In this document: positions 3,012 through 40,517 of the stretch, piece after piece
How the letters are laid out: each line of letters starts with the position of its first letter
Numbering within the stretch: position 1 is the stretch's first letter
Virus record (IMG/VR): IMGVR_UViG_3300044822_000012
Span: 1-49,222 of that record
Source of the DNA: a virus
Direction: 5' to 3' (one strand)
Length of the DNA: 49,222 nucleotides
Position numbers and translations under genes: made by a program
Notes under the pieces: generated by a model
The model's database searches: none
What the model saw: only the letters and a program-made list of their open reading frames with translations
Told to the model about the DNA's origin: nothing

Positions 3012-3037
3012 GGGGCGCTTTACGCGCCCCTTTTTTT
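3012..3037 (+). terminator. intrinsic terminator of the left plus-strand operon
   Basis: A perfect 7-bp stem GGGGCGC / GCGCCCC (3012-3018 and 3024-3030) with a 5-base loop is followed by seven T residues (3031-3037). It ends transcription of the 17-2906 gene run just before the converging VapE gene. The opposite strand has no T-run after the stem, so it acts in one direction. The 105 bases between 2907 and 3011 hold no convincing gene. Confidence 0.85.
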
Positions 3038-5201
3038 ATTCGGGCGGCGCATCCTCGCGTGGCGGATACCAATACCGACCGTCCCCAGTGCGACCGCGAC
3101 GAAAGCCAGCCGCGCGCATGATGCGCCCGACACGCCTTTGCTCTACCGGCGTCTGCTTCGCGAGCGGCATGTCGATTGCGTATTGTAGGATGGCCGACGT
3201 GGTGATGCGTCCCCGGCTATCGGCGTGAGTGGTGGCGTAGCTCAGTGCGACAGCCGTCCATGCGTCGGGCTCCGCGACTCGTTCTTCCTGCTCAATCGTG
3301 GCTTGAGCTGGCATTTTGTGCCAGGTCTCGCCGTCCCGATACGCCTGGACCGCTTCGGCGAATACCTGCTCTCGCGTGTCACGCAGCGTGTCAATCTCGA
3401 TCGTCTCGCAGCGAATCGGCCAATAACGGCGCTTGCCGCGAGCATCCGAGAGATAGTCGTCGGTCTCACTTGTCGCCGCGAAGATCGCGGTGCGTGGATG
3501 ATCTTCGGTGATGCGCCCATAACTCGCGCGGTAGGAATCAACGCGCGTCGTAATGGTCGCGACGACCTGTGAATGCTCGCGCCGCGAGAAGTTGGTCATG
3601 TCGGGTATCTCAATGAGCCACGCGCCTTGGATCGCTTGCAAAAAATCTTTCTCCCCGAACCCCAGGTGCGGAAAGGACTTGTACCAGGGACCGCCCAGGA
3701 CTTCGAGGAATGTCGTTTTGCTGGTTCCCGAGACACCTTCGAGCACGGGCATGTTGTCCATCTTGCACCCCGGCACATAGGCGCGAGCCACCATAGCTAT
3801 TGGCCAGTTGTGGCTAATCGCCATCGTGTATTCGTCCATGTCGCAGCCGAGGCAATCAATGAGCCAGGTGTCGAGGCGTTTGATGCCGTCCCATTGTAGG
3901 CCGTCGAGCCAGTCAGTCAGGGAGTTGCGCTCGTCGCTGCGCGCCGCGTGATCGAGGGCTTCGCCCACCAGCCGACTTGTCATCTTCGGCAGCCGCAGCC
4001 CCTCCTGCAACAGCACGGTGACGTTGAGCACGTCGGCGTCTATCAGGGGCCGCTCAATGCCGCCCTGCGGTTTGTAATAAACGCGCCCGCGAAACGTATC
4101 GAACCAGATGCGCCCTTTAAGATCAGGGTGCATCTGGATGATCTTGCTAGCATTCGCGAGCGTCGAGTGCGGCACGCCACCCTCGTTACAGTCGAGGCCG
4201 AATGCGGACCAGTCCATCAGGACGGAACAGCGCGGGGTCTTGGTGACGACCGGGGCCTTTTTTGCCGGGGCTGGCCGGGGGGGCGCCGGGGCCTCTATCG
4301 CAGTCGAGCTGTGCGTGTCCATGTACTCGATCAGGTCAGCGGTGTCCGTGGTCGCTTCGGCTATTGCATCGGCCACGTCCCATCCCGGCGGTGCCTCCTC
4401 ATGCGGCGTTATGACGCGCACGCTCGCGGCGATCGGCAGCAACACCCCCGCGATGGCGGCGGCGGCGTTGCGCCCAGGGTCATCGGCGTCGGGCCAAAGG
4501 GTCACGTTCCGGCCGGCGAGCACCGTCCAGTCGGACTTCTTCCAATTGCTTGCGCCGCCCGCCCAGGTGAGGACCACGTATTCCGGCAGCAGCGGGGCCG
4601 CGGCCTCGGCGCACTTCTCGCCCTCCACCACCAGCACCGGGGCCGTGCGCTGATTCTCAAGATAGACCTTGTTGTACAGCTCCAGCGGGGCCGGCGCTCC
4701 TTTGGCCACCCAGCGATCCTCGCGCCAGGTGAACTGCCTAAATTCCTTGCCGCCGGGGCCTTCGTAGCGCGCGACGCGGAAGCTGTCACCGTAGCTGTAG
4801 ACCGCCGTGGCGGGGCCGAGGGTGCGGTGATCGGGCAGAGGCGGGGCGTCGATGGGAATCTCGTCGGGGGCCTTCTCCGGCGGCTTGGTGAGCGGCAGCA
4901 CCGGCACGTAACTGCCATTCATGCCGACCAGTTGCGCGACTTGCTGCAGCGCCGCGCTCTGGTTAAGGCGGTGGAGCGCGGCATAGAGCGAGATCATGTC
5001 GCCGCCGCGCTCGTCGCTGGCGAAGGCGCCCCAGTGGCCCGTGACTAAGTTGATTTTCCACGAGTCGCCGGGACCGCCGTTGGCTTTTTTACAGCCTACC
5101 CACTCTGAGCCTTCGCGCTTTCCCCCGAGCCATTGGGGCAAAAGCGCGTGCGCCTGCGACAGGGCAGCCTCGGCAACTGCCTTAAAGTCGGGGGCCGCCA
5201 T
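3036..5201 (-). CDS. Toprim/VapE-family primase-helicase (721 aa)
   Basis: The domain order is typical of phage replication primase-helicases. An N-terminal primase-like region comes first. A Toprim-type domain spans about 187-275, with VVEGEK (191-196) and PDADD (237-241). A Pro/Ala linker follows at about 300-320. A virulence-associated-E (VapE) SF3-like ATPase occupies about 430-660. The P-loop reads EGVSGTSKTT (488-497), with Ser in place of the usual Gly before Lys. Downstream are IEIPDM (acidic Walker B-like) and the VapE signature ATSETDDYLSDARGKRRYWP. It should unwind DNA and/or prime synthesis at the phage origin. No polymerase is seen nearby, so host polymerase is likely used. ATG 5201 lacks a strong Shine-Dalgarno sequence. 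Confidence 0.88.
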   Translation of the reverse strand: MAAPDFKAVAEAALSQAHALLPQWLGGKREGSEWVGCKKANGGPGDSWKINLVTGHWGAFASDERGGDMISLYAALHRLNQSAALQQVAQLVGMNGSYVPVLPLTKPPEKAPDEIPIDAPPLPDHRTLGPATAVYSYGDSFRVARYEGPGGKEFRQFTWREDRWVAKGAPAPLELYNKVYLENQRTAPVLVVEGEKCAEAAAPLLPEYVVLTWAGGASNWKKSDWTVLAGRNVTLWPDADDPGRNAAAAIAGVLLPIAASVRVITPHEEAPPGWDVADAIAEATTDTADLIEYMDTHSSTAIEAPAPPRPAPAKKAPVVTKTPRCSVLMDWSAFGLDCNEGGVPHSTLANASKIIQMHPDLKGRIWFDTFRGRVYYKPQGGIERPLIDADVLNVTVLLQEGLRLPKMTSRLVGEALDHAARSDERNSLTDWLDGLQWDGIKRLDTWLIDCLGCDMDEYTMAISHNWPIAMVARAYVPGCKMDNMPVLEGVSGTSKTTFLEVLGGPWYKSFPHLGFGEKDFLQAIQGAWLIEIPDMTNFSRREHSQVVATITTRVDSYRASYGRITEDHPRTAIFAATSETDDYLSDARGKRRYWPIRCETIEIDTLRDTREQVFAEAVQAYRDGETWHKMPAQATIEQEERVAEPDAWTAVALSYATTHADSRGRITTSAILQYAIDMPLAKQTPVEQRRVGRIMRAAGFRRGRTGDGRYWYPPREDAPPE

Positions 5202-5593: not shown

Positions 5594-5938
5594 CTACGAA
5601 TTAATTATTTGGCCCGCTTCTTCGATGCTGCGCGCGATGCCGGCACGCCCTCCACTGCGACGGACAAGATCAATGAAATCACGCTGTTGCGGTGTCACGC
5701 GCGTTCGTGGGCCTTTAACTTCGATGGCGGTAAAGATCGCGCCGGCCGACCAGCCGAGAAGATCCGAGACGCCCTCGGCGGCGAGCCGGATCGGATACCA
5801 GGGCGCTAAGATCAAGCGCTGCGGGGTGTGCTCCAAGACGCGGCCCTGATAGGCTTGGCCCGCGTTGATGCGAAACAGGCGCGTGTCGCCGTGGGAGTGC
5901 GCCGTGAGGATCGTGCCGTAGAGATCGGATTCGGTCAC
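5594..5938 (-). CDS. VRR-NUC domain nuclease (114 aa)
   Basis: A single VRR-NUC (PD-(D/E)xK) domain. The candidate active site is D59 in GVSDLLGW followed by E73-V-K75 in AIEVKGP, then the usual TPQQRDFIDLVRRSGG helix. Phage VRR-NUC proteins are thought to act as structure-specific nucleases in replication or recombination. The start is GTG 5938, six bases after the upstream gene's stop; no ATG exists near the N-terminus. It lies in the same block as RecT and VapE. Confidence 0.85.
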   Translation of the reverse strand: MTESDLYGTILTAHSHGDTRLFRINAGQAYQGRVLEHTPQRLILAPWYPIRLAAEGVSDLLGWSAGAIFTAIEVKGPRTRVTPQQRDFIDLVRRSGGRAGIARSIEEAGQIINS

Positions 5939-5944
5939 ACCGCA

Positions 5945-6172
5945 TCATAGCACCAAAAAGTGATGCAGAGCCTTGACCTGCGCCTCTAGCTCCTCGATGC
6001 GCGCCTCTAGCGCCTCTAGCTCCTCGATGCGCGCCTCCAACTCAGCGATGCGCTTCTGAGCGTGGCTCGCGTACTCCTCCCACTCGCGAATGCGCTCCAT
6101 ATTCGCCGTGGCGACGGCTTTCCACTCCGCAGCTTCCTTTAGCAACGTGCTGTACCGCTTCAATGCCCCCAT
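5945..6172 (-). CDS. coiled-coil protein with 30-bp internal duplication (75 aa)
   Basis: Almost the entire protein is helical, and residues about 40-68 form an ideal heptad-type coil (RIAELEARIEELEALEARIE). Two copies of a 30-bp unit at 5981-6040 encode EARIEELEAL and EARIEELEAQ. The start ATG 6172 follows GAGGTGG and overlaps the frameshifted gene's end by 13 bases. It resembles small phage coiled-coil accessory proteins; no function is assigned. Confidence 0.6.
   Translation of the reverse strand: MGALKRYSTLLKEAAEWKAVATANMERIREWEEYASHAQKRIAELEARIEELEALEARIEELEAQVKALHHFLVL
5981..6040. repeat. tandem 30-bp duplication (2 copies)
   Basis: Positions 5981-6010 and 6011-6040 are the same 30-mer except for two bases at the end. 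The duplication is in frame and lengthens the coiled coil by ten residues. Confidence 0.85.
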
Positions 6173-6382
6173 CTTTTGGCCACCTCGCGCGCCGCTTCAC
6201 GGCAGAGCGTGCCCAGCTCAAGGCGCGTGAGCAAGCCGCCCTCGGGCTCGCCGCTCAAGAATTCAACGGTGAATGCCGTCGGCTGCCCATCGTCAAGAAT
6301 CAACTCCTCGTCAAGAATCCACTCCCATCTCTACTTCGACCGGCTTGCCCCGCAGCGTCGTCTTGAAGCGCACGGGGTTCAC
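6160..6382 (-). pseudogene. small phage gene split by a +1 frameshift (73 aa if joined)
   Basis: Reading starts at GTG 6382, which overlaps the previous stop as GTGA, and gives NPVRFKTTLRGKPVEVEMGVDS before a TGA at 6313-6311. The frame one base ahead then continues without a break as DEELILDDGQPTAFTVEFLS and on to a TGA at 6162-6160. That second frame has no ATG and is closed by a TAG just upstream, so it reads as the second half of the same protein. The total of 223 bases is one more than a multiple of three. Either a one-base indel (or assembly error) or programmed +1 shifting would explain it. The product resembles small acidic phage proteins of unknown role. Confidence 0.55.
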
Positions 6383-6528
6383 AGCACCCCCCAGCGGTAC
6401 AGCACCAGCAGCAACAGTAATCCCACCACGGAGCCCGCCGTGAGGAACGTGCCGACGAACCACAGCCAGCCGAGAACTGCGTGCTCGTCGGTGTAGCGGT
6501 CCCAGAGTTCAAAGATTCGGTCAAACAT
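6379..6528 (-). CDS. small single-span membrane protein (49 aa)
   Basis: ATG 6528 follows TGGAGGG. The protein starts with MFDRIFELWDRYTDEHAVLG and then has one long hydrophobic segment (about residues 20-45, ending VVGLLLLLVLYRWGVL). It is preceded by a minus-strand terminator and followed by the frameshifted gene through a GTGA overlap. It could be a small inner-membrane or holin-like protein; there is no specific evidence for lysis. Confidence 0.55.
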   Translation of the reverse strand: MFDRIFELWDRYTDEHAVLGWLWFVGTFLTAGSVVGLLLLLVLYRWGVL

Positions 6529-6540
6529 CGCAGCCCTCCA

Positions 6541-6568
6541 AAAAAATGCCCCGCCGCGAGCGCGGGGC
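6541..6568 (-). terminator. intrinsic terminator on the minus strand
   Basis: Read on the minus strand, GCCCCGC (6568-6562), a 7-base loop and GCGGGGC (6554-6548) form a perfect 7-bp GC stem followed by a T-run (6547-6539 region, ATTTTTTT). It lies between two small membrane-protein genes and would separate the secreted/membrane cluster upstream from the genes towards VapE. Confidence 0.8.
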
Positions 6569-6588
6569 AAACTTCCCAGCACGGGAGA

Positions 6589-6732
6589 TTACTTGTTGAT
6601 GAACAGCGCAGCCAGCCATAGGATCATGATCGGCACCAGCACAAGGGCTCCCGACCGTCCCATGAGCCATAGGATCACCTGCACGATGAACAGCCCGACC
6701 ATACCCAAAATCATCAGTCGCATGATGCTCAT
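6589..6732 (-). CDS. small two-span membrane protein (47 aa)
   Basis: Nearly the whole protein is hydrophobic: MSIMRLMILGMVGLFIVQVI, then a GRSG turn, then LVLVPIMILWLAALFINK. This gives two membrane helices joined by a short polar turn. It shares pattern and length with the gene immediately upstream (R-L in the first segment, VQV, then GR, then VP), so the two look like a tandem duplication. The ribosome-binding site is weak. The terminator at 6541 follows. Confidence 0.5.
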   Translation of the reverse strand: MSIMRLMILGMVGLFIVQVILWLMGRSGALVLVPIMILWLAALFINK

Positions 6733-6737
6733 ACCAG

Positions 6738-6911
6738 CTACCCGCAACTTAGGCGGCCCTTCCGTCGACTGATCAGTATCACCACGAGCGCGAGCAGCGG
6801 CACCACCATCGCCGGCAATCCCGTCACGGGTCGCCCCACAAAATGCAGCGTCACTTGCACGCCAAGCAGGAAAGCGGCGAGTGTGATCATCACTAAACGT
6901 AGGATATCCAT
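6738..6911 (-). CDS. small two-span membrane protein, paralogue of neighbour (57 aa)
   Basis: The ATG at 6911 directly follows the TAA of the secreted-protein gene. The product reads MDILRLVMITLAAFLLGVQV, then a VGRPVTG turn, then a second hydrophobic helix and a basic end (SRRKGRLSCG). The alignment with the 6589-6732 protein covers both helices and the central VQV and GR. Location in the membrane is well supported; the job is unknown. Confidence 0.5.
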   Translation of the reverse strand: MDILRLVMITLAAFLLGVQVTLHFVGRPVTGLPAMVVPLLALVVILISRRKGRLSCG

Positions 6912-7826
6912 TTAGCATCCATCCCCATAACCCAGGCAAAAGAGGTTCATGGCCCAAAACCCATTCCATCCTGCCCCCCAATCCAGCTCAGGGTCAACGA
7001 CAGTCGGGACAGACACCCATATTTGCGCTGCCTCGGTCGCCAGGGTCTCTAGATCCCCCGTCAACTTCTGCTCAGTGGGGCTGTCGGCGATGGCGAAGAC
7101 CGCGGCGACTATTCCTATCAGCGCCCCCAGAATTATGATCGGTGCTTCTTTCTCGCTGCGGTGCAGCGTGGAGTGTAGGTAAAGGGCGGTCGTGTTTAGA
7201 GCCTGCTTTTTTGGCGTGCCCGCTTGTAGCTCTGCATAGGTGACGTTGCGCTGGTTCGCATACGAATCGAGGAACACTTCGTAAGCGTACAAGTCGCCAA
7301 GCACCGCAGGCAGTTTGCCGCCCTCTTGCACCCAATAGTAAGACTGAGGATAAGGTCCTACCCCGGCTCCCACTAACTCTTCATATATTTGAAGCGTAGA
7401 AGGCGTCATATATGGCACAGCCCACTCCTTCATAAAGTTGGTGCCAAAGGCCCGTGCCATCGAAAACAATACCCCTGGGTAGGTATTCTTCGCCATGCAC
7501 TCGAATAACAGCGGCATCCAGTTTTGGTCGGACGCCATCACCAGAGTTGAGAACCGCGCCATCAGGTAAGGATCTGCGTTCGCCCCCGTCGCAGCATCCA
7601 GCATCAAATCTTTGAATGATGGGTTATTGAGGCAAGCGTCGTACATTTCCTCAGAAAATCTGGCGTTGATTTCCGCTACGGTACTGCCCCAGCTCGGTGC
7701 CGTCTGCCCTGGCGTCGAAGTCGCAATGGTGCCCTTCGGCTGCACAATCAGGTGCGGTGCCGTGGCTTGCGCCGCGCCCGCGTTGAGCAACGCCATCGTC
7801 GCTATCAATGATAGAAATGCTCGCAT
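6912..7826 (-). CDS. secreted/membrane-anchored protein of unknown function (304 aa)
   Basis: A Sec signal peptide is clear (MRAFLSLIATMALLNAGAAQ, likely cut after AQA at residue 21). The mature part is helical with conserved-looking Trp/Tyr/Pro and four cysteines (C65, C110, C297, C304). A hydrophobic segment at about 229-247 (PIIILGALIGIVAAVFAIA) would anchor it in the inner membrane. GGAG lies eight bases before ATG 7826. I do not recognise the family. It is followed by two tiny membrane proteins, which suggests a joint envelope role, for example in superinfection control or lysis timing; this is inference. Confidence 0.65.
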   Translation of the reverse strand: MRAFLSLIATMALLNAGAAQATAPHLIVQPKGTIATSTPGQTAPSWGSTVAEINARFSEEMYDACLNNPSFKDLMLDAATGANADPYLMARFSTLVMASDQNWMPLLFECMAKNTYPGVLFSMARAFGTNFMKEWAVPYMTPSTLQIYEELVGAGVGPYPQSYYWVQEGGKLPAVLGDLYAYEVFLDSYANQRNVTYAELQAGTPKKQALNTTALYLHSTLHRSEKEAPIIILGALIGIVAAVFAIADSPTEQKLTGDLETLATEAAQIWVSVPTVVDPELDWGAGWNGFWAMNLFCLGYGDGC

Positions 7827-7863
7827 TTAAAATCTCCATTTCCAAGGTTAGAAGTTGGTTCCG

Positions 7864-8064
7864 TTACATCGAATCTTCTATTTGGGGTTTTCCTCCTTTG
7901 ATTTCAATCTTGATTTCAATCTCCATCAAGAGATCATCGACCGCTTGGCCAGGCGTTCTGCCGTGGCCGATAGGGTCGCCGCCGTCGTAATCCTCAAGTG
8001 TCGCCTGCCATCGGCACCACTCGCCGGGAATGGGCGCATGCGTGCGGCTAATGATGACTTTCAT
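7864..8064 (-). CDS. small HicB-like-fold protein (66 aa)
   Basis: The first 50 residues (ISRTHAPIPGEWCRWQATLE, then GHGRTPGQAVDDLLMEIE) follow the strand-strand-GxGxTxxEAxxDL-helix pattern of HicB/DUF1902-like small proteins that are common in phages. No HicA toxin partner is adjacent, so I do not call a toxin-antitoxin pair. The C-terminus is a charged Ile/Glu/Lys tail. GGTGGGGATTGG precedes the ATG. Confidence 0.5.
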   Translation of the reverse strand: MKVIISRTHAPIPGEWCRWQATLEDYDGGDPIGHGRTPGQAVDDLLMEIEIKIEIKGGKPQIEDSM

Positions 8065-8089
8065 CCAATCCCCACCTTTTCACCGATCT

Positions 8090-8185
8090 TCATCCGCCAC
8101 AAGGCGCTTCGGCGATCCATAGGCCAAAGCGCACACCGAACAGAAAGGCCATCAACACGAGCAGTGCGATGCCCCAGAGGTTCAT
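8090..8185 (-). CDS. tiny membrane protein (31 aa)
   Basis: An ATG-started frame in the gap between two called genes encodes one hydrophobic helix (MNLWGIALLVLMAFLFGVRF) and a short tail (GLWIAEAPCGG). It starts five bases after the upstream stop and adds to the local set of small membrane proteins. The ribosome-binding site is weak and the frame is short, so this is tentative. Confidence 0.4.
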   Translation of the reverse strand: MNLWGIALLVLMAFLFGVRFGLWIAEAPCGG

Positions 8186-8190
8186 GTTAC

Positions 8191-8841
8191 TTAGCGTCGC
8201 CCCTTGAGCACCAGACCCACGCCCGCGAGCAGCAACAGTGCTGCGCACGCATGCCCCGGATCTAACTCGGGGGCCGCTGTGGCGCGCGGCACCGCCGCCC
8301 GCACCACACTGGAGTATGGAGCCGGCGAGCCGAGGACGAAGAAGTCATTCAATAACGCAGTGGTCGCGAAATTCAGTTGGCCGTGCGCGTACCCCGGCTC
8401 TATATATTGATAAAAGCCGTTGCCACCTTTGCCAGCAGCGCCCCAGAACTGAAAAAAAGGATAGCCCTCATTCGAGAAATTACATTTGTCGCAGTACAGA
8501 CCACCTTTCGTCGCGATGAGGGTCCCACTGATAGGCCCTGGTGTTTGGTTCGCCTGCATTATCTCGGTCACGCCATGATAGGTTATGTTGACGTCGTAGC
8601 CGATGATCAGCGGGTTATAGCCAGGGAACCCCTGGCCCTCGCAAGGACTCACGACGCACCCCGACTTGCCATAGCCGTTAGTTTCAAACCAGCCGGTCAC
8701 AGTGAGGGGGCTCGGGTCGGTCCAGCCTGGGTCGTTGGTTGGCGCCGCGGTCATCAGCGCTTTGTCCGTAATCGCGTAGTACTCGTCCTGCGCATGCGCT
8801 GCGCCCGCCATCAATCCCAAAGCCAAAATTAGCTGCCGCAT
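8191..8841 (-). CDS. secreted protein with PEP-CTERM-like sorting tail (216 aa)
   Basis: The N-terminus is a standard Sec signal peptide (MRQLILALGLMAGAAHAQ, cleavage after AHA at 17). The mature domain (20-180) is Gly/Tyr/Asn-rich with two cysteine pairs (C62/C67 and C117/C120) and looks beta-rich. The end is tripartite: PELDP at 191-195, a hydrophobic helix (about 198-211), and a basic GRR terminus. This is the layout of PEP-CTERM exosortase substrates; the PE(I/L)DP form is a variant I recall from Gammaproteobacteria. CGGAG lies before ATG 8841. A phage carrying this is unusual; it may be a host-derived surface protein. Confidence 0.7.
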   Translation of the reverse strand: MRQLILALGLMAGAAHAQDEYYAITDKALMTAAPTNDPGWTDPSPLTVTGWFETNGYGKSGCVVSPCEGQGFPGYNPLIIGYDVNITYHGVTEIMQANQTPGPISGTLIATKGGLYCDKCNFSNEGYPFFQFWGAAGKGGNGFYQYIEPGYAHGQLNFATTALLNDFFVLGSPAPYSSVVRAAVPRATAAPELDPGHACAALLLLAGVGLVLKGRR

Positions 8842-8859
8842 GTGTCATCTCCGTAGTTG

Positions 8860-9072
8860 TTACCACCCTAATCGCTTGCGCCGCTTCGCGAGCGCCATCT
8901 TTGCGTAGTGCTCTGGACTGCGCCGCTTCTTCGGCCCCACCGCCGAGCCACCCTTTTTGCCCATCTCCGCCATCTTCTCCCGCAGCGCTCTCGACATGCG
9001 CGGGCACGGATAATTCAGGGGGTCCGCGAGATGCGCCGCGAGTTTGCGGCGATAGATCGCGGCCTCGCTCAC
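8860..9072 (-). CDS. small basic protein with KKGG motif (70 aa)
   Basis: GTG 9072 overlaps the stop of the preceding gene (GTGA); the open frame extends upstream but lies inside that gene. The second half is very basic (EKMAEMGKKGG, then GPKKRRSPEHYAKMALAKRRKR) and resembles short Lys/Arg/Gly-rich phage proteins that probably bind nucleic acid. No function is established. Confidence 0.55.
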   Translation of the reverse strand: MSEAAIYRRKLAAHLADPLNYPCPRMSRALREKMAEMGKKGGSAVGPKKRRSPEHYAKMALAKRRKRLGW

Positions 9073-9410
9073 TTGGCTCTCAGCGGTACCGCGCGCGTCG
9101 CCGCCTTCTGCCCCCGACCGAACAGGAATTTCTTGCCGGCCCGAATCGCACTCACCTGGGCGTACCATCGCTCAACCTGCTGTGGGGATAACGGCGCGAC
9201 GCTGTGACGTGTCCTAGTCGATTCCATACACTTGAGGCATTGCCCTCCTGAGACATAACGCTCCGCCACATGCCCATAAATGCAGGGACGACCTGTAAAG
9301 AACCGTATGAGCCCCAGGGCGCGAGCCGCGTCCCGGTCAACGACCGCCAAGTAAATCGCCCCATCAAATGAACACCCTCCTGTATTACGCCGCAGTGCGG
9401 CAATCGTCAA
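9069..9410 (-). CDS. phage zinc-finger-type protein (113 aa)
   Basis: The core LGLIRFFTGRPCIYGHVAER then YVSGGQCLKCMEST gives C43, H47, C58 and C61. This pattern recurs in phage proteins, alone or fused to HNH nucleases (typically LGxxxYFTGKPCxxGHxAER). No HNH motif follows here. The start is uncertain: TTG 9410, one base past the Gp157 stop, keeps the frame. A good AGGAGGG instead precedes an ATG in the wrong frame (near 9365), so a small frameshift near the start is possible. Confidence 0.55.
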   Translation of the reverse strand: MTIAALRRNTGGCSFDGAIYLAVVDRDAARALGLIRFFTGRPCIYGHVAERYVSGGQCLKCMESTRTRHSVAPLSPQQVERWYAQVSAIRAGKKFLFGRGQKAATRAVPLRAK

Positions 9411-9411
9411 T

Positions 9412-9909
9412 TCAAAGGCTTATACGTACGTGCTCGCCCTTCTCCACAAAGCACCCCGGCACGTCCTCACCGTTCTGTAGTGCCGCCTTGATCAGCATTT
9501 TGTCCAACTCCGGCGGCGGCGCGGGCGCCTGGCGCCAGTAGGCCGCCGGCACCGATGCCTCATTCATCACATACACCGAGGCCGGATTCGCTTGGCGGCG
9601 CACCACCAGCTCGTCGCTCTCGATGCGTTCGCATTGCATGATCTGCATTTGCATCAGCAGGTACGCCTTGAGCGAGTCGGCACGCTTTTGAATTCGGTCT
9701 GCGCGCTCGCCCATGCGCTTCGACGCATCGGCAACGGCTTGCGCACGATTGGCGAGCGCGAGCACCATCTGCGCGACCGCGACCGCCTTGACTTCAAAGG
9801 CACCTTGGATGCCTTCGAGAGTATCGAGGATGACTTGATGCGGCACTTCGTCCGAGTCGAGCAACGCCTCGACTTCTTTGAACTGGCCGCTGATTTCAAA
9901 TAGGCGCAT
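9412..9909 (-). CDS. Siphovirus Gp157-family protein (165 aa)
   Basis: The protein starts MRLFEISGQFKEVEALLDSD and continues with the family pattern (DTLEGIQGAFEVKAVAVAQM, then a long coiled-coil with KRMGERADRIQKRADSLKAYL). It ends in a beta region with DELVVRRQANP and a basic tail. Gp157 proteins accompany RecT/Erf-type recombination genes in many phages, and their mechanism is not established. ATG 9909 lies 14 bases inside the end of the RecT gene, which suggests coupled translation. Confidence 0.85.
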   Translation of the reverse strand: MRLFEISGQFKEVEALLDSDEVPHQVILDTLEGIQGAFEVKAVAVAQMVLALANRAQAVADASKRMGERADRIQKRADSLKAYLLMQMQIMQCERIESDELVVRRQANPASVYVMNEASVPAAYWRQAPAPPPELDKMLIKAALQNGEDVPGCFVEKGEHVRISL

Positions 9910-10678
9910 CTTTAGTAGGCGCCTCAACATCGCCGCGCTCGATGGCATCCTTCATATCGTCGTACCATGCCTTTAATTTCTGCCGCGCGATGTCATCGCC
10001 CTCTGCTTTTTTCCACGCCACACCGAACGCCTTTCTCAGCTCGGGGAGCGTGCGTACGTCGAGCGACATGATCAGCTCGTCGGTCACGTCAGCCGGCAAC
10101 GCATTCGTGACGTGCTCGACGGCGCCTTCGACGGCTTTTTCGATGGTCGCTACGGGTTCGCTGCCCTCGATCCCCTCTAGCTCCTGCGGGCTGTACATTT
10201 GCTCCGTGCATTCGGGCGCGCACGTCCTCACGCCTTCGGTGATACAGCGCGAGCGATACATCGGGCGACCAAATTTGTCGTACATGCCGCCATTCTTGCC
10301 GGCGAGGCCCGCGCGCTCGGCTCGCGCACGATCCCAATCCACCGTGATCGGCTCGGGACAGTAAGGATGGCTGAAGATGCCGGTTACGCCATCATCTGAG
10401 TATTTGACCCAGCGCACCCGCCCGCCGCTCGCTTGGAAGTCGCGCAGCATCGCGTCCGCCTTTTTTGACAGGCGCCCCTGGATCAGCTCGTAATCGCGCA
10501 TGATCAGCGCGGGGTGCTTGCCGAGCGCCTGCGCGTACAGCATGAGGCTGAGAGCGCTGTCGGGATCTTTGACGCCAAAGAGACCCGACTTAGCGAATGA
10601 GGTGGCCATGCGCTGCACTTGCTCGAAGGTGTAGGACAATGCGGGCAAATGCTCGCGAACGGCGACGTTAGTTGTCAT
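9896..10678 (-). CDS. RecT-family single-strand annealing protein (260 aa)
   Basis: The stretch FAKSGLFGVKDPDSALSLML, then KHPALIMRDYELIQGRLSKKADAMLRDF and RSRCITEGVRTCAPE is characteristic of phage RecT-like recombinases. These anneal complementary single strands during recombination and end repair. The last 60 residues are an acidic helical tail. GAGGAG precedes ATG 10678. No lambda-exo/YqaJ-type exonuclease is adjacent. The nearby VRR-NUC and the divergent helicase are the other processing enzymes. Confidence 0.8.
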   Translation of the reverse strand: MTTNVAVREHLPALSYTFEQVQRMATSFAKSGLFGVKDPDSALSLMLYAQALGKHPALIMRDYELIQGRLSKKADAMLRDFQASGGRVRWVKYSDDGVTGIFSHPYCPEPITVDWDRARAERAGLAGKNGGMYDKFGRPMYRSRCITEGVRTCAPECTEQMYSPQELEGIEGSEPVATIEKAVEGAVEHVTNALPADVTDELIMSLDVRTLPELRKAFGVAWKKAEGDDIARQKLKAWYDDMKDAIERGDVEAPTKDAPI

Positions 10679-10752: not shown

Positions 10753-12165
10753 ATGCTCACCCTGCGCCCCTATCAAGCCGAGGCAATTCAGCGCATCCGC
10801 ACTGCTTTTAGCAATGGCGCGAAGTCTCCTTTATATGTACTGCCGACGGGCGGCGGCAAAACCGTCATCTTCAGCGCCATCGCCGAATCCTCACTGCGGC
10901 GCGGCAAGCGCGTGCTGATCATCGCGCATCGCGTCGAGCTGGTTGATCAGATTGTGAGGGCGCTCAAAGAATTCGGGGTCGAGCCCGACGTCGTTGCGTC
11001 AGGCTACGGGCGGCGCCCATCGAAGACCTGCGATGCTGTCGCCGTCGCGAGTGTGCAGACGCTCGTCAATCGTATGGAGTCGCTCCCACCGCCATCACTC
11101 ATTGTTTGCGATGAAGCGCATCACTGTGCCGCTGGCAATACGTGGTCGCAGGTTTTGCGCGGCTATGCCGATGCGAAAGTTCTGGGTGTTAGCGCGACGC
11201 CCGTGCGTCTCGATGGGCGCGGCTTGGGCGCGCACTTCGATCAATTGATCGTAGGTCCCTCCGTGAGCGAGCTGGTGACGCAGGGCTACCTTGCGCAGCC
11301 GCGTGTGTTCGCACCGCCCACCGTCGACACGAGTGGACTGCACATTCGCATGGGCGAGTATCGGATCGGCGAGTCCGAAGCGCTCATGGACAAGCCGTCC
11401 ATCACGGGCGATGCCATCACCCACTACCGCCGGCATGCGGCCGATAAGCCGGCGCTCGTATTCTGCACGTCGGTCAAGCACGCCGATAATGTCGCGCAGG
11501 ACTTTCGCGCCGGTGGCATTTCGGCAATTGCACTGAATGGCAGCACCGATCCGAAGATTCGGCGCATGGCAGTTGAGGATTTTCGCCGTGGCGCGATCCG
11601 TGTGCTCGCGAGCTGCGATTTGTTCAGCGAGGGATTTGACGTGCCTGGCGTCCACGTCGGCATCATGCTGCGGCCGACTGCATCGGAGGGACTGCACCGC
11701 CAGCAATGCGGGCGCATCTTGCGCACCGCGCCGGGCAAGACGCACGCGCTTATCCTCGATCATGTGGGCAACTCGCAACGGTTCGGGCTGCCCCATGAGG
11801 ACCGCCAGTGGACGCTTACCGATGACATCGCGAAGAAAAAGCAAAACAAGCCGGCCCTGCAGGCGCGCGTGTGTCCGAAGTGCTGGGCGGCATCGCCGGC
11901 CCGCGCGCTTGTGTGCGTCGACTGCGGCCACGTCTTCGAGATAAAGCCGCGCCAGGACATTGAGGAGCGCGAGGGCGATCTAAAAGAAGTGAAGCCGCTC
12001 ACGCCGGAGGAGGTTGATCGGCGCGAGTGGCGAAAAAAACAGGGTCGCGCGCAGTCGCTGGAGCAGCTAGAGGCGTTCGGGCGCTCGCGTGGATACGCGC
12101 CAGGCTGGGCCAGGCATATTATGGAGGGTCGTGAGGCGAAGAAGAAAGGCCCCAGCAGCCCGTGA
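10753..12165 (+). CDS. SF2 DEAD/DEAH-type helicase with zinc ribbon (470 aa)
   Basis: Both RecA-like domains of an SF2 helicase are complete. Motif I is PTGGGKT (31-37), motif II DEAH (120-123), motif III SATP (147-150), and motif VI QQCGRILR (317-324), with the motif V region around FSEGFDVP. Residues 374-391 form a CxxC...CxxC zinc ribbon (CPKCW, CVDCG), followed by a charged helical tail. Phage homologues help replication or recombination by unwinding or remodelling DNA. It is transcribed away from RecT, from its own promoter, and its last 47 bases overlap the converging gene at 12119. Confidence 0.88.
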   Translation: MLTLRPYQAEAIQRIRTAFSNGAKSPLYVLPTGGGKTVIFSAIAESSLRRGKRVLIIAHRVELVDQIVRALKEFGVEPDVVASGYGRRPSKTCDAVAVASVQTLVNRMESLPPPSLIVCDEAHHCAAGNTWSQVLRGYADAKVLGVSATPVRLDGRGLGAHFDQLIVGPSVSELVTQGYLAQPRVFAPPTVDTSGLHIRMGEYRIGESEALMDKPSITGDAITHYRRHAADKPALVFCTSVKHADNVAQDFRAGGISAIALNGSTDPKIRRMAVEDFRRGAIRVLASCDLFSEGFDVPGVHVGIMLRPTASEGLHRQQCGRILRTAPGKTHALILDHVGNSQRFGLPHEDRQWTLTDDIAKKKQNKPALQARVCPKCWAASPARALVCVDCGHVFEIKPRQDIEEREGDLKEVKPLTPEEVDRREWRKKQGRAQSLEQLEAFGRSRGYAPGWARHIMEGREAKKKGPSSP

Positions 12166-13534: not shown

Positions 13535-13768
13535 ATGATCATCTTGTGGCTCGCAGTGTGGGCCCTTATCGCGTATATCGCGCTGCTGATAGTCGGCATC
13601 CTGTGGTCGTGCTTCGTCGTCGCGTGGGTATACGTCGGCGCCGGGATCTGGTTCATATCCCGCGCCCTGCGATCTCTAGCGCTTTTTGTATGGTCGCGTC
13701 TGGTACGTGCAGCAACGGCTTGGTACTCGCGTCGGTCGCCTTCTTCGCGGACTTCCAGCGCCCCATGA
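13535..13768 (+). CDS. small membrane protein on the opposite strand (77 aa)
   Basis: This is the only plus-strand frame in the 34-kb virion block for which I see its own promoter. The first 117 bases lie in a region with no minus-strand gene. The protein has two hydrophobic segments (MIILWLAVWALIAYIALLIV, and about residues 24-42) and a basic Arg/Ser tail. Its last 116 bases are antisense to the 3' end of the 586-aa gene. It could be a holin-like or regulatory membrane protein; both the gene and the role are tentative. Confidence 0.4.
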   Translation: MIILWLAVWALIAYIALLIVGILWSCFVVAWVYVGAGIWFISRALRSLALFVWSRLVRAATAWYSRRSPSSRTSSAP

Positions 13769-15413
13769 GGCGCGACACCAGCGGTTCAATATCGTCGACC
13801 TTGCCGCCTGCCGCGCGTTGAATCGCATCGGCGGGTAGCGTACCGAAATCCGGCGCGGGCTGATCTACGTCTCGCTCCTTGGACTCGCCCGCGCCATACC
13901 CGAGTGCGGGGGCGACGGTCTGCACGGCAGGCGATACGGTCCTCACGCCAGGGAGCCCCTTGGCGAGCATATTACCTACGGGACCTTGATTGCGCATCGC
14001 GCGGCCCGCGACAGCACCGGAATAGAAGGCGGCGCCGGCTTTCAGCGCAGCCTTGAAGGGTTCACCTGATTGCGCGATCTCCAAGGCGGTGAGCGTTGGG
14101 ATCGAGCGCTCCGCTGTGCCGCTGTTGGCGAGGTTTTCCGGAATAATTTGCCGCGCGGCCTTCGCCAGCCCCATTAGGCTCTGGTCGCCCCGTCCGTAGA
14201 TCGCCTGATTTCGATTCGACTTGTTCATGAGGGATCGCATGAGCGGCAGCACGCCGATATTCCCATTGGAGTCGATAGCCGGCTCGATCTGCATCAGCTT
14301 CCTGTATTGCTGGCGTGCGCCCGTAAGCGCGGCTGCATCTTCTGGATTTGAACGTTCGAGCGCATCATCAACCACGTCCTGCATGTCATGTGCGAACGGC
14401 GCATAGCGCGGATCTTTGGATAGAGTCCTTAACGACGTGCGCACCTTCTGATAAAAAACGCCGTCAAGTTGGCCGTCATTTTTAGCAGCGTTCGACAAAA
14501 TATCGCTGACGTGGGCCTTGATGGGGCCTAAATCTGTATCCGGCAATTGGCGTGTTGCATTGTACTCAGCATCTCCTAACCCATTCAGCATCTCGTCATC
14601 GACTTTCACGCCACGGCTACCGACGTCGTCCATCACTCCAGTAATCGCCTTCTCGGCCTTATCCATGACGTCGGGGTCTGCTTTGCTCGCGTCTGCGACG
14701 CCTATGCGGCGCAGAACGGCAGCATTGAACTTCGGCTGTTGCGCAGCCATGAAGTCTCTCTGATCGTCGCTGATCATGCTGCTCGCGCGCTCTGCGGTTT
14801 GCGCGCCCTTGGATGCCGTTTTCTGCGCAACAGAGGTAGGGATACCCTCTTTGTTCAAAAGATCCACGGACGCCTGCCGTTCCTCTGGCACACCGAAGCC
14901 GCCGAGCCACTTGAACACCTTGCCGACGGCCCCGCCGGCTGCACCGCCAGCCGCCCCGAGGCCCATGTTCTGCGCTCTCGATTCGCCCGTCGGCACTGGC
15001 TGCGCCGCTCCCATCGCTGCGCCCGCCGCAGCGCCGCCCATAATGCCCGTGCCGGGAACGAATGCCGCCGGAATCGCGGCCCCGATTATATCGCCGGCCT
15101 TTCCCCAGCCGGTATTCATCAATGCCTGGTCCCGTTCGTGAGCGGAGTCGACGTCCTGCTGGATCTCCTTCATCTTTTCGTCGGAGACCAAACCCGCCGC
15201 ATGGCCGAGGGACGCGCCCAACTGATATACACCGCGCCCCGTGTCGACCATGCCCTTGCCGACGCCAGCCGCCAGCCTATCGGACCACGACATGTCGTCG
15301 GTCGGGCTGTACATCTCACCCTGCTTCGGCACCGGCAGGTCGCTGATATCCGGCGTAGCGTTGTCCTTCGACGGATCGGGGAGATCGCTGATATCTGGAG
15401 GCGCGGCGCTCAC
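13653..15413 (-). CDS. probable internal virion/DNA-ejection protein (586 aa)
   Basis: The N-terminus has two repeats of PDISDLP. Residues about 105-165 form Gly/Ala zipper segments (IIGAAIPAAF, GGAAAGAAMGAA, GAAGGAAGGAVG) that could enter a membrane. Long helical regions with Gln/Lys/Asp follow. This composition, and its place next to a 1414-aa Gln-rich protein downstream of the tail hub, is typical of podoviral ejection proteins (P22 gp7/gp16/gp20-type role). The start is GTG 15413, overlapping the previous stop (GTGA). The assignment rests on composition and context, not on a family match. Confidence 0.55.
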   Translation of the reverse strand: MSAAPPDISDLPDPSKDNATPDISDLPVPKQGEMYSPTDDMSWSDRLAAGVGKGMVDTGRGVYQLGASLGHAAGLVSDEKMKEIQQDVDSAHERDQALMNTGWGKAGDIIGAAIPAAFVPGTGIMGGAAAGAAMGAAQPVPTGESRAQNMGLGAAGGAAGGAVGKVFKWLGGFGVPEERQASVDLLNKEGIPTSVAQKTASKGAQTAERASSMISDDQRDFMAAQQPKFNAAVLRRIGVADASKADPDVMDKAEKAITGVMDDVGSRGVKVDDEMLNGLGDAEYNATRQLPDTDLGPIKAHVSDILSNAAKNDGQLDGVFYQKVRTSLRTLSKDPRYAPFAHDMQDVVDDALERSNPEDAAALTGARQQYRKLMQIEPAIDSNGNIGVLPLMRSLMNKSNRNQAIYGRGDQSLMGLAKAARQIIPENLANSGTAERSIPTLTALEIAQSGEPFKAALKAGAAFYSGAVAGRAMRNQGPVGNMLAKGLPGVRTVSPAVQTVAPALGYGAGESKERDVDQPAPDFGTLPADAIQRAAGGKVDDIEPLVSRLMGRWKSAKKATDASTKPLLHVPDATIQKALEIAGRGI

Positions 15414-18400
15414 TGATATCCCTTCTTCTTCAGGTATTGCTGCGCCTTGTCGCGGTCGCCCTTAAAGTGCGCGTCGGCATATGCCTGCAGCTTCGGGCCA
15501 GCCGGCATCGGGTTATTGATGGTTGTGCCCGCAGGCGCCGCCGTGCTCAGGACACTGGACAAAGGAAACTTCCTTGAATAGTACCCGTCGAAGGCGCGGG
15601 CGTCTTTTCCTTGCGCCAAGTAATGAGGAATGGCGCTTTCCTTCGCGACATCGTACTGGCCCTGCTGAATCTGCCAGTTGAGCAACCCCTCGATCGCCGC
15701 CTTCGGCATCTCGGTCGACGCGGCTAGGCGATTGATGATCAAGTTGCTCTCTTGATTGCCGAGGCGGATTTGCGCGCCTCGATCTTTCAGGTCTTCAATC
15801 GCGGTCTCCAACGCGCCCGTTCCCAACGACTTCGCCAAGATGTCATGGGCGGCCGGGTTATTGCCGAGCCACGATACAAACTGCGACCCCGTCATATTGC
15901 CGAGAGCGGTCTGAATGGCCGACATGGTCGTCGTGCCGGGGCCAGTCTTTGCGTTCGGCAGGAGCTGCAGGGCTCTTTGCGCCTTGACGATCGCCTGCTG
16001 CGTGCCTTCGAGACGATTTGCTTCGTCGTATAGGCTCTGTTCTGCGGTCGCGTACTTCTCGGCGACTCTATCCATGTTTACAGTGGGGACTCTGTGCGGA
16101 TTGTCCAGCCATGCTGGCTTAGGCGCCGCATCGCTGAAATCCAGCGATGAACCCTTCGCGGGCGAGCCTGGCGCTCCTGGTGCTTCGGTCGTCGGCGTCG
16201 TCGACCGCTGCGTAGCACCGCCGCCTGGACGCTGAGCACCCGCTGCACTCGCACCCGCATTCGGCACCCACCCACCCTGCGGCTGCCAATTGGTCGGGAT
16301 ATTGCCGCCACCATTCTGCTTGACCCAATTGATGAACGCTTCGCGCGCTGGTGCTCCGGTCTCAGTGGAAGCGTACGTATCCTTAAACTGCTGCCACTGC
16401 TGCTCTGGCGTGAGCGCCTGTGCCGCAGGGCCGATCGTCGGGCGTCCGGTGCGCGAGTTGATCTCCCTGCCAGCGTTGTCCTCGTATTTATCCCCGGTCC
16501 ACGGATGTGTCGCCGTGACCGTGTTCATCGCGTACTCTTTGGCTGCCGCATCCGCATCCGGGGGCGCGTTGCCAGACGTGGGATCAAAGTTCATCTGTTT
16601 CGCGATAGCAGTGGCTGCGGTAGGATCGGTGGTCCTTAAGGCCGCGAAATTGCCGCTAGGCGCGATGGCGACCTCATAGGCCGCATCATGTTTGTTCTGC
16701 ATGTCCAATTGATTCTGCGCGTGTGCTGTATTGATGCGCTGCTGAATCCTCGTGTCTATTTGTGCTGCGAGACCAGGATTCCTTACGGCACCGCCCGCGA
16801 CTTGCAATCCGGCCTTCGCTTGCGCCTCTTCGGGTGTCATCGGCGGCACATAGTTCTTTTTATTGTAATACTGCGTCAGCATCGCCGCACCAGCCGCGCC
16901 CCGCTCAGTCGGGGGTGATCCCATGTCGGACGCGCCAGCCGATGGATTCATGTTATTCATGGAGCCGAGCGACTTGCGCGTGACGTCGAGGCCGAGCCCC
17001 GTCAGTTGGTTCTGTAGATTCCGTGCCTGCACGTCCTGCGCCGCTTGCTGCGTCGGGAAGTACGACTGCGCCCCCGCACCGAGCCCCGCCGCGAGCGCGA
17101 CGCCCAAGTGCTTCGTGGGGTACATGCCCATCGCTGCGAGACCTTGGATGGCAGGGATCGCATCTGTCTTGTTGCGCTCCCACCAGTCGTGGATGCTGCC
17201 CAGCACGCCCTTTTTCTGATCGGGCTGCGGTTCCTCGGGCACTTTCTGATCTGCCGTCGGATCGACGCCAACGGGCGAGAGATCGGCGGCGGCGACGCCC
17301 GAGGGCGCTGCCGCTGGCGCCGGTGCCGGACTCGCCGCCGGAGCCGGAGCCGCATCGACAGGCGCGGACGCAGCGACGCCACTCCGCACGCGCGGCGCAG
17401 ACTTGGGCGCCGGAGCGACGGGCGGGGAATTCGACAAATCAATCGTATTCGGAGCGCCCATGTTGTTGCGCAGAGGACTGCCAGACCACACCACATCTTG
17501 CGGATTGACATCGGGATCGGGACTCATGCCCAGGCCGCCGCCATCATCCTTATGAATGCGCCCCCCGCGCCGATGATTATTCGTCTGGCTCGCACCGTAC
17601 GCATCGTAGAGCTGGCCTGCAGCGCCTGCGTAATCGCCGAAATACGCTTCGCCCGCAGCGAGCGCGAGGTGCTTGACCGAGTCGAGCGAGGTGTTCGGTG
17701 CGGCCTGCGCGAGCGGCGGTGCGGCGGTCTGCAGTGAGGTGTCGGGTTCATCGCCCGACACCGTTGAGTTTCGATCGGCTGAGTTGGAGGTGACGGCATC
17801 GCCGCCCGTGTCCCGACGAATGCGCCCACCACGCTTCTCTGCGCCAGCCAGGGCGCTTGACGCCACGCCCGAGAAGTCATCGCCGCTATCAGCCGCCGCA
17901 CCACCTGCGCCGCCTGCGCCGCTGCTAAACATGCTGCTGATATTGCCGCCCATGCTGCCCATACCGCCCGCGCCAGACATCAACTGCTGAAATCCCGTCG
18001 GCGCCTGCTTCGGTAGGTCGGGCGCTTTGATCATCTGGTTGTGCGAGTTCTCGTCAGGGATCGCGAGTTCCGAGTAATCGTTTACCCACGAATAGGGCGA
18101 GCCACCGGAGGCAAACTCCGAGCGCCCACTTGCCGTGGGGATACCCAGTTCGGTCGAGCCCGCACCCACCACGTTACTGTACGGAATGCCGCCCGAGGCG
18201 AGGCCCACGACACCGCCCCGGCGATTGCTCTGGGTCTGCGGAGGGCTATAGTCATCGTTCGCCGCGACGCCCGTCGGAGATGGAGCGCTATAGAAGCTCG
18301 GGTCCATTGCGGGGACCGATGACACCACGCCCGATGACGGAGCCGCAGTTTGCGTGGGCTGGTTCTTATGCGCGTTCTTTTCGTAGTTGTCGTATCCGGC

Positions 18401-19654
18401 CTGAATCTTCGAGCCCGTGTCGATGAGCTGATTGATGTTCTGCATCCCAGTCGGCTGCGATCGGACTGACCCCTGTGCCGTAATGAGCTGCGGCGAGCCA
18501 CCCGTGGGCGCGGGCACGCGGCTCGAGCCGCCTCGCGGCACCGATCCGGCCGCCAAGCCGAAGGCACCAGGGCCGCCCCCGGTTATGGGCGCGTACATGG
18601 CCTGCTGTGCGGCAAGGATTTCGGCAAGATCGAAGGAAGGGCCGCCGCCCGTCGCGAAGTGCCCGCGATCCGCCGCCTTCTCCGTCGCCTTACCGTAGTC
18701 AACCGTCTTGAACCCCGAGGCGAGGCCCACCGCCTCTGGCTTCTTTTTCTCGACTTCTTGCGCGATCAGACCGACATGCGTGCGCGGGTCGCCGTGCATC
18801 TTGTACGAGTAGATCGACTGCCCGTCATAGGTCTTGCCGATCTTTTTGATGTCGTGCTTCAAGCGCACGTCGGAGAAGAAGCCGCCTGGCTGTGACGTGG
18901 TCGTGGTCGAACCAGACAGCGCACCCGTGCCCTCTGCGATATTCGCGAGGAATTGGTCGACCTGGAACGGATAGCTCTGCTTTTGCAGGAACTGGTTGTA
19001 GAGCGCGGTGTCCTTCGCCTGTTGCGTCTGTTGCTCAAGCGTGCCCGCGCCGATCTCGGCTTGCGCGGTCTGTTGGCCTTGGGCGAACTGCTGCTGCCCG
19101 ATTTGCGCCTCTTGCGCACCCGCCTGCAGGCCAATCTGTTGCTGGCCCTGCGCCGTGCCGAGCGCCGACTGGTAGCCTTGGTTTGCGATGCCGGAGTAGA
19201 TCTGCGAATTCGCGAGATCCTGCTGCTGCTCAAGATTCGCCGCGGCAATGCCCGTGCGGTCGCCGCCGAAGGCACCCTGATTGATCGCGTTGCCGAGCTG
19301 CCCGGCTTGCTGCTGCTGGTTGTTCTGGTTGAGTACGTTCGCGGTGCTGCCGAGTACCGTGTTCAAATAGGGTGAGAGGTACTGATCTATCTGGCTGCCC
19401 GTGAGCGGAGCGCCACTCGCTTGAGTCGTCCCGAGAGCGGTCTTGTCCGTCGCGTTGGCCGTATTCAGCAGCCCCGGCAGTTGGTTGATGCCCTGGGTCT
19501 GCTCCTGGTTGATCGGCGCCACGAATTGGCCGTTGTAGCTCTGGAATGGCGTCTGTGCCGTCTGGTTCGCCCGCGCGTTGACCGCCGAATACTGCGCTAG
19601 GACCTGCGGCGGTATCGAGACTTGCTGTGTACTGGTTGAACTTTTGCCGCCCAC
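15410..19654 (-). CDS. giant virion protein with internal S74 chaperone domain (1414 aa)
   Basis: Residues 1-240 are Gln/Ala/Asn-rich and helical (for example QNNQQQQAGQLGNAINQG). At 261-325 comes a peptidase-S74-type intramolecular chaperone (FFSDVRLKHDIKKIG, then THVGLIAQEVE) with the Ser261/Lys266 pair expected for self-cleavage. The remaining 1090 residues are G/P/A-rich with repeated FASGG/RRGG(V/R) segments, a Pro/Ala linker (about 760-800) and a helical C-terminus. It probably belongs to the internal head or ejection apparatus. Most S74 domains are at C-termini, so its position here is unusual. The start is GTG 19654. Confidence 0.65.
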   Translation of the reverse strand: MGGKSSTSTQQVSIPPQVLAQYSAVNARANQTAQTPFQSYNGQFVAPINQEQTQGINQLPGLLNTANATDKTALGTTQASGAPLTGSQIDQYLSPYLNTVLGSTANVLNQNNQQQQAGQLGNAINQGAFGGDRTGIAAANLEQQQDLANSQIYSGIANQGYQSALGTAQGQQQIGLQAGAQEAQIGQQQFAQGQQTAQAEIGAGTLEQQTQQAKDTALYNQFLQKQSYPFQVDQFLANIAEGTGALSGSTTTTSQPGGFFSDVRLKHDIKKIGKTYDGQSIYSYKMHGDPRTHVGLIAQEVEKKKPEAVGLASGFKTVDYGKATEKAADRGHFATGGGPSFDLAEILAAQQAMYAPITGGGPGAFGLAAGSVPRGGSSRVPAPTGGSPQLITAQGSVRSQPTGMQNINQLIDTGSKIQAGYDNYEKNAHKNQPTQTAAPSSGVVSSVPAMDPSFYSAPSPTGVAANDDYSPPQTQSNRRGGVVGLASGGIPYSNVVGAGSTELGIPTASGRSEFASGGSPYSWVNDYSELAIPDENSHNQMIKAPDLPKQAPTGFQQLMSGAGGMGSMGGNISSMFSSGAGGAGGAAADSGDDFSGVASSALAGAEKRGGRIRRDTGGDAVTSNSADRNSTVSGDEPDTSLQTAAPPLAQAAPNTSLDSVKHLALAAGEAYFGDYAGAAGQLYDAYGASQTNNHRRGGRIHKDDGGGLGMSPDPDVNPQDVVWSGSPLRNNMGAPNTIDLSNSPPVAPAPKSAPRVRSGVAASAPVDAAPAPAASPAPAPAAAPSGVAAADLSPVGVDPTADQKVPEEPQPDQKKGVLGSIHDWWERNKTDAIPAIQGLAAMGMYPTKHLGVALAAGLGAGAQSYFPTQQAAQDVQARNLQNQLTGLGLDVTRKSLGSMNNMNPSAGASDMGSPPTERGAAGAAMLTQYYNKKNYVPPMTPEEAQAKAGLQVAGGAVRNPGLAAQIDTRIQQRINTAHAQNQLDMQNKHDAAYEVAIAPSGNFAALRTTDPTAATAIAKQMNFDPTSGNAPPDADAAAKEYAMNTVTATHPWTGDKYEDNAGREINSRTGRPTIGPAAQALTPEQQWQQFKDTYASTETGAPAREAFINWVKQNGGGNIPTNWQPQGGWVPNAGASAAGAQRPGGGATQRSTTPTTEAPGAPGSPAKGSSLDFSDAAPKPAWLDNPHRVPTVNMDRVAEKYATAEQSLYDEANRLEGTQQAIVKAQRALQLLPNAKTGPGTTTMSAIQTALGNMTGSQFVSWLGNNPAAHDILAKSLGTGALETAIEDLKDRGAQIRLGNQESNLIINRLAASTEMPKAAIEGLLNWQIQQGQYDVAKESAIPHYLAQGKDARAFDGYYSRKFPLSSVLSTAAPAGTTINNPMPAGPKLQAYADAHFKGDRDKAQQYLKKKGYQ

Positions 19655-31755: not shown

Positions 31756-32096
31756 CCGATGCCGTTAATGTAGACGATGAGCGCTGCCGCTTGCGGCTGA
31801 ATCACCCAGGAGACCTGGAGTGGGCACACGAACCAATTGTAGGCCGAGGACCCTGATTGATCCAGAATTGTGATATCGCCGATCGCCGATTGGTTGTAGA
31901 CAATCATCGACCAGCCGTTAACGCCGGGATTCAAGATCCCCAGAAGATTCGAGCCCGCGCTATTTGCGGTCAGTACCAAGAGATTCGTCGTGCCCGCCGT
32001 ATAGCCGGCCGGTGGCGCCGCTCCATAGTCGTTGTTCCCGGCGCCCATGTTCGCGATGATCAGACCGCTGTAGGTGGCACCGTTTACTGTTGCCAT
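31740..32096 (-). CDS. small structural protein, paralogue of collagen-like neighbour (118 aa)
   Basis: I chose ATG 32096 (MATVNGATYSG); ATG 32108 also fits. The body GNNDYGAAPPAGYTAG, SNLLGILNPGVNGWSMIVYN and WVIQPQAAALIVYINGIGW is matched nearly line for line by the protein encoded just upstream, so the two arose by duplication. This copy lacks the collagen-like stalk. It probably forms a beta-sandwich head of a small fibre. Confidence 0.65.
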   Translation of the reverse strand: MATVNGATYSGLIIANMGAGNNDYGAAPPAGYTAGTTNLLVLTANSAGSNLLGILNPGVNGWSMIVYNQSAIGDITILDQSGSSAYNWFVCPLQVSWVIQPQAAALIVYINGIGWTIT

Positions 32097-32590
32097 ACGA
32101 TTACCCATCCGATTCCGTTGATGTAGACGATGTAGACCGACCCCTGCGGTTGAATGACCCACGGGACACCGAGCGGTGTCGTAAAGGAATCGGCGCTCGA
32201 GGCCGCAGCCTGATTTTCTAAAATGATATCGGCGGTGGTCGATGCGTTTTCGATGACCAGCGCCCAGCCGTTAACGCCAGGATTTAAGATGCCGAGCAGA
32301 TTCGAGCCTAATGGGTTCGGCGTGAGGATAAGCGCGTTCGTGATGCCAGGCTGATAGCCGAAGATGGGGGTCGCGCCGTAATCGTTATTCCCCGCGAGCA
32401 TGTTCGCGCTGGACTGAGTACCGTAATAGTTACCACTATTGGTCCCCGGCGTAGGCCCAGGACCAGGACCCGGCGGGCCGGGTGGCCCCGGAATGCCCTG
32501 CGGCCCCTGAATGCCCTGCGGCCCAGGCGTGCAAATCTCGATGACATTACAGGCAGTGATCTGGACGGTGACGCCAGCAAAACCACTCAT
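32084..32590 (-). CDS. collagen-like small fibre protein (168 aa)
   Basis: After an N-terminal attachment stretch (residues 1-20), a collagen-like Gly-X-Y run at about 22-48 (GPQGIQGPQGIPGPPGPPGP) would form a triple-helical stalk. It is followed by the same beta domain as its neighbour (SNLLGILNPGVNGW, WVIQPQGSVYIVYINGIGW). Short fibres of this type occur on phage capsids and tails and help attachment. The ATG 32590 overlaps the upstream stop (ATGA). Confidence 0.7.
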   Translation of the reverse strand: MSGFAGVTVQITACNVIEICTPGPQGIQGPQGIPGPPGPPGPGPGPTPGTNSGNYYGTQSSANMLAGNNDYGATPIFGYQPGITNALILTPNPLGSNLLGILNPGVNGWALVIENASTTADIILENQAAASSADSFTTPLGVPWVIQPQGSVYIVYINGIGWVIVWQQ

Positions 32591-33578: not shown

Positions 33579-33581
33579 TGA

Positions 33582-34331: not shown

Positions 34332-34332
34332 T

Positions 34333-37173: not shown

Positions 37174-37175
37174 GG

Positions 37176-40502: not shown

Positions 40503-40517
40503 GATGAAGGCTCCCGA

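Follow-up and report, generated by a model that had tools for sequence, protein, structure and literature searches.

A secreted phage protein with a C-terminal tail related to signals found beside bacterial XrtE genes

The window analysed here, a single IMG/VR virus record of 49,222 bases representing a phage from an environmental sample, encodes a primase/helicase (3036-5201), a VRR-NUC nuclease (5594-5938), a Mu-Gam-like protein (9412-9948), a RecT-like protein (9896-10678), a helicase (10753-12165), ejection proteins (13653-19654) and a major capsid protein (44877-45791). The last of these has 508 related loci across IMG/VR, and its distant kin, at 30-41% identity, include the capsid proteins of Pelagibacter phage HTVC023P, Roseobacter phage CRP-901, Alcaligenes phage vB_Af_QDWS535 and Caulobacter phage RW. 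The structural region (27412-43187, minus strand) includes four ORFs of great length (1447, 946, 1108 and 889 aa) without a PHROG match. An ORF of 372 aa on the plus strand (46801-47919), shared at 96% identity by the nearest capsid relative (L002) and missing from the other loci, has only a remote Pfam match to GT4-type glycosyltransferases (E = 0.013), its product possibly being a surface- or DNA-modifying enzyme. Between the VRR-NUC and Gam genes lies a variable islet (about 5945-9410, minus strand) containing many small membrane or secreted ORFs, of which those tested had no relatives in the capsid-related loci. As no lysis genes were recognised among the proteins scanned, these may reside in the islet.

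The subject of this study, P0001, is a secreted protein of 216 aa encoded within this islet (8191..8841, minus strand), its gene sitting between those for VRR-NUC and Gam/RecT and sharing their strand. The ORF consists of 216 codons from an ATG start, has a coding-like GC content by codon position (0.59/0.50/0.70) and is preceded, 7 nt ahead of the ATG, by a GGAG resembling a ribosome-binding site (8849..8852, minus strand), as read from the sequence. The N-terminus is a predicted Sec signal peptide, MRQLILALGLMAGAAHA (8791..8841, minus strand), in which a positive residue and a hydrophobic core lead to an AxA cleavage site; cleavage, as judged by eye, would follow AHA and leave a chain beginning QDEYY. 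The mature domain (residues 18-188; 8278..8790, minus strand) has no detectable homologue: searches with the whole protein found no matches in Pfam, NCBIfam, PHROGs, IMG/VR or GenBank phages, nor any in 38 capsid-related phage records, and the 23 tail- or XrtE-bearing genomes searched contained no cellular homologue of this domain. An AlphaFold2 single-sequence model (pLDDT 33) was unusable for this domain; among its few regions with pLDDT >50 was the C-terminal end, modelled as a helix followed by KGRR. Directly downstream, as read from the sequence, is a 31 aa membrane ORF, MNLWGIALLVLMAFLFGVRFGLWIAEAPCGG (8090..8185, minus strand), the product of which is a possible partner of P0001, and a second secreted ORF in the islet (6912..7826, minus strand; 304 aa) has a signal peptide and lacks a PELDP-type tail.

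The final 28 residues of P0001 (189-216; 8194..8277, minus strand), AAPELDPGHACAALLLLAGVGLVLKGRR, have the layout of a tripartite signal, composed of the signature motif PELDP (8257..8271), a predicted hydrophobic helix (residues 198-213; 8203..8250) and a basic end, GRR (8194..8202), all on the minus strand. Every part that the original prediction had read in this ORF, from the Sec signal peptide to the PELDP motif, the hydrophobic helix and the GRR end, was confirmed, with the minus strand as the coding strand. BLAST fails on a tail this short, tblastn with the tail alone finding nothing in phages and plasmids even at E = 10, and so codon patterns of fixed spacing were used together with a local profile. 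The profile was constructed from 26 bacterial tails only and applied to 36,583 translated frames from the window and the phage loci, in which the background lies at about 10 bits and is clearly exceeded by only a handful of tail proteins. P0001 scored 35.8 bits (E = 8.5e-9), whereas the best score among 5000 shuffles of its last 32 residues was -0.3, and hence the resemblance of its tail to those of bacteria is not a matter of chance. The bacterial consensus is xxAPEIDPASAxSALALLAGxLxVIRGRR, in which P, E, D, L, G and G are invariant, including the P, E and D of the signature motif and the glycine of the basic end, where arginine is nearly invariant; the window tail departs from it at some columns, having L for I and K for R. 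A leucine of the window tail is encoded by TTA, which kept this tail out of the initial codon-pattern scan.

The same tail, with its spacing mostly exact, was found in at least six further IMG/VR phage records, which may be fragments, and in 21 bacterial genomes. The phage records are G003, G025 (with L122), L123, L125, L126 and L189, of which G003 and G025 share their major capsid protein with the window, while L123 and L126, the two records checked for hallmark genes, contain terminase genes. The tail of G025, VPELDTSGLSGAATLLLGALAVVRGRHR, which has the same spacing as that of the window, was found by scanning the ORFs of related phages for signal-like C-termini; the fixed-spacing codon pattern gave five matches across the entire IMG/VR, and a second pattern that did not require PEID added L189 (APEIS...). 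In the profile search, the window, G003, G025/L122/L124, L123, L125 and L126 all matched at E <= 4.2e-7, and nothing else fell below 0.8. Some change in the motif is evidently tolerated, as that of G003 is AEID. The mature domains to which these tails are joined are mostly unrelated, the exceptions being the related pair of L126 and L189 and a marginal similarity between G025 and L125 (E = 0.001-0.01), and because the tail is retained regardless, it is a portable tag, as would be expected of a sorting signal. This supports the proposal of a phage-borne exosortase sorting signal: conservation of the mature domain without its tail had been named as part of the outcome that would count against it, and the opposite was found. 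The shortest of the phage proteins, in L123 (12338-12580, plus strand; 80 aa), is almost entirely signal and tail; it begins MKRAVLLACMLLPGCATVHQ, resembling a lipoprotein signal, and could therefore have a lipid anchor in addition to its sorting tail. No exosortase is encoded by the eight phage records tested, which led to the idea of a phage equipped with its own enzyme being rejected, and the enzyme must come from the host.

Across 84,980 bacterial and archaeal genomes, the codon pattern identified 25 loci. L149 and L170 were set aside as chance matches inside other proteins. The bacterial matches, with the exception of L149, are C-terminal, mostly following N-termini that resemble signal peptides, and the 21 carriers are soil Gammaproteobacteria and Acidobacteria. 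A match to the exosortase family PF09721 is present in 20 of these 21 genomes, compared to 1 of 14 controls. The model TIGR04162 describes XrtE, in which exosortase E and an intramembrane protease form one fusion protein, and we take it from the family names to be the NCBIfam partner of the VPEID-CTERM model TIGR04161. It is matched above its curated cut-off in 18 of the 21 tail-bearing genomes, with partial copies in two more, and in none of 184 further genomes from the class to which G042 belongs. The association extends to samples that were not chosen for the tail. Among 116 genomes of an order (G042 excluded), two encode XrtE, and it is this same pair that carries the tail (p = 1.5e-4, ignoring shared ancestry), and among 149 genomes of an acidobacterial class, the tail is found in 5/5 genomes with XrtE and 2/144 others (p = 3.7e-8, again ignoring shared ancestry); in all seven of the XrtE genomes from these samples, a tail gene is on the same contig as XrtE and within about 1 kb of it. 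Two acidobacterial genomes, G361 and G458, carry the tail without an XrtE at the threshold used, reflecting either incomplete assembly or another enzyme.

Each of the 12 XrtE loci that were fetched has between one and five tail genes within 1.5 kb, mostly encoding tiny proteins composed of a signal peptide and a tail, and the 12 XrtE proteins all retain the invariant Cys and Arg. In Acidobacteria these loci (L158-L169) feature tandem sets of one to five proteins of around 50-70 aa that have almost no mature part. When P0001 is used as a plain query, it reaches the ORFs neighbouring XrtE through residues 176-216 only. The tail of P0001 is homologous to a signal of bacteria that is itself genetically linked with XrtE. 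Of the bacterial homologues that the original prediction had suggested be sought, those of the tail were thus found, while the mature domain had none in the 23 genomes.

P0001 is accepted by none of the curated sorting-signal models in Pfam or NCBIfam. Neither PF07589 nor TIGR02595, the models for PEP-CTERM, matches it, the motif being PELDP with no Pro-Glu-Pro; the reading of the tail as a classical PEP-CTERM signal must therefore give way to one of the PEID/VPEID type, the form found beside XrtE genes in bacteria. It nevertheless shares with the PEP-CTERM/EpsH system (PF07589, PF09721; PMC1569441) the tripartite layout, the signal peptide, poorly conserved mature domains and an enzyme of the exosortase superfamily. 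The tag is VPEID-CTERM-like, TIGR04161 being the nearest of the curated signals: as in that system, a PE-I/L-D motif is followed by a helix and a basic end, with a signal peptide ahead, and the bacterial copies of the phage-type tail adjoin genes that pass TIGR04162. P0001 is not a formal member, having no reported match to TIGR04161 (cut-off 33 bits), and it differs in being borne by a phage without the enzyme and in the pattern of its tail, [AV]PEIDPasa..AL.LL.G.l.ViRGRR, which falls under that cut-off.

Even the bacterial tails of the XrtE type reach at best 20.6 bits on TIGR04161. At L128-L151 and L171-L173, TIGR04161 misses this branch of tails (no more than 20.6 of the 33 bits among those scanned), whereas the neighbouring enzyme passes TIGR04162, such that the public VPEID-CTERM model overlooks a whole branch of real signals adjoining XrtE genes, leaving a gap in annotation. 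The layout is also similar to that of MYXO-CTERM; the XrtE name denotes an exosortase/protease fusion, and in Myxococcus the cutting is performed by a CPBP protease, the myxosortase MrtX (PMC11980579). MYXO-CTERM, however, requires a Cys signature motif, and the tail of P0001 scores 10.1 bits on TIGR03901 against a cut-off of 20. The LPXTG proteins processed by sortases follow an analogous logic with a tripartite C-terminal tag, but their enzyme and motif are unrelated. No published case of a phage-borne exosortase substrate was found among open-licence papers.

With a probability of roughly three in four, P0001 is a phage-made substrate of a host XrtE-type exosortase that passes from Sec export to the cell surface. 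The most likely path, for which the published PEP-CTERM model (PMC1569441) provides the basis, would begin with export of the chain through the Sec system by means of its signal peptide, which would then be removed. The C-terminal helix would stall in the inner membrane, with KGRR on the cytoplasmic side and PELDP facing the periplasm, where XrtE may recognise the motif, remove the tail and convey the mature domain to the surface of the cell, either anchored or released; the host's own PEID-tailed proteins are presumably sorted likewise. We infer both that the host has an XrtE and that the tail is cleaved in this way, and exosortase-like enzymes do appear to leave their substrates at the surface (PMC11980579). 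What follows is more tentative, at somewhat less than even odds: the mature domain might act in the envelope of the infected cell, most probably by concealing or altering some feature of its surface. As the purpose, either superinfection exclusion or the remodelling of a surface polymer is preferred, since it is the cargo that varies while the tag stays constant.

The main rival concerns this purpose, and holds that the phage protein is a decoy, which occupies or blocks the host XrtE through its tail such that PEID-tailed proteins of the host go unsorted. Such an effect would suit a family in which the tail is the sole conserved part and one version, that of L123, is nearly all signal and tail, but most of the phage versions include a secreted domain of more than 100 aa for which a decoy would have no need, and short forms are in any case normal, given the host tail proteins of 50-70 aa that adjoin XrtE; we consider a decoy unlikely. 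Slightly less probable again is that the gene is a passenger, either captured from a host without any selected role in infection or included through a chimeric contig of phage and host DNA. Its location in an islet that varies between phages with related capsids would be in keeping with this, yet three capsid-related phages bear differing tail proteins on phage contigs, the gene is embedded between VRR-NUC and Gam/RecT on their strand, and a cellular source for the mature domain was not evident in the genomes searched.

A plain membrane-anchored protein of the envelope or lysis type, having a convergent tail and no involvement with an exosortase, is the least probable of these readings. Other small membrane ORFs are encoded nearby, and any secreted protein ending in a helix and basic residues looks roughly similar, but convergence would not be expected to preserve the fixed spacing, the PE[IL]D motif, the glycine and the V-h-[RK]-G-R ending, nor to achieve a profile score that no shuffle approached, and in cells the carriage of the tail tracks XrtE. 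Sorting of P0001 by a host XrtE hence remains the favoured reading. It can be extended, at somewhat under even odds, to the suggestion that several phages of environmental bacteria independently tag different secreted domains for host XrtE and so cover or modify the infected cell's surface, excluding competing phages for example, in which case the tagged proteins would constitute a class of surface-acting phage proteins defined by the tag rather than by the domain.

Exosortase systems are widespread in environmental bacteria, where the surface roles of their substrates are poorly known. Retention of the tag with a change of cargo in phages implies that proteins sorted by XrtE matter in infection, and the phage tag offers a direct test of what an exosortase system is for. 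The tag by itself may also serve as a route to phage proteins that act at the surface, and as a clue to the hosts of uncultured phages. A search for spacer-like DNA in 30 candidate genomes, using 19 kb of the window, returned only noise and no CRISPR-like match. When the tail profile was split by lineage, the window was tied between the gammaproteobacterial and acidobacterial versions (31.8 and 31.7 bits, respectively), and the tails of G003 and G025 look gammaproteobacterial.
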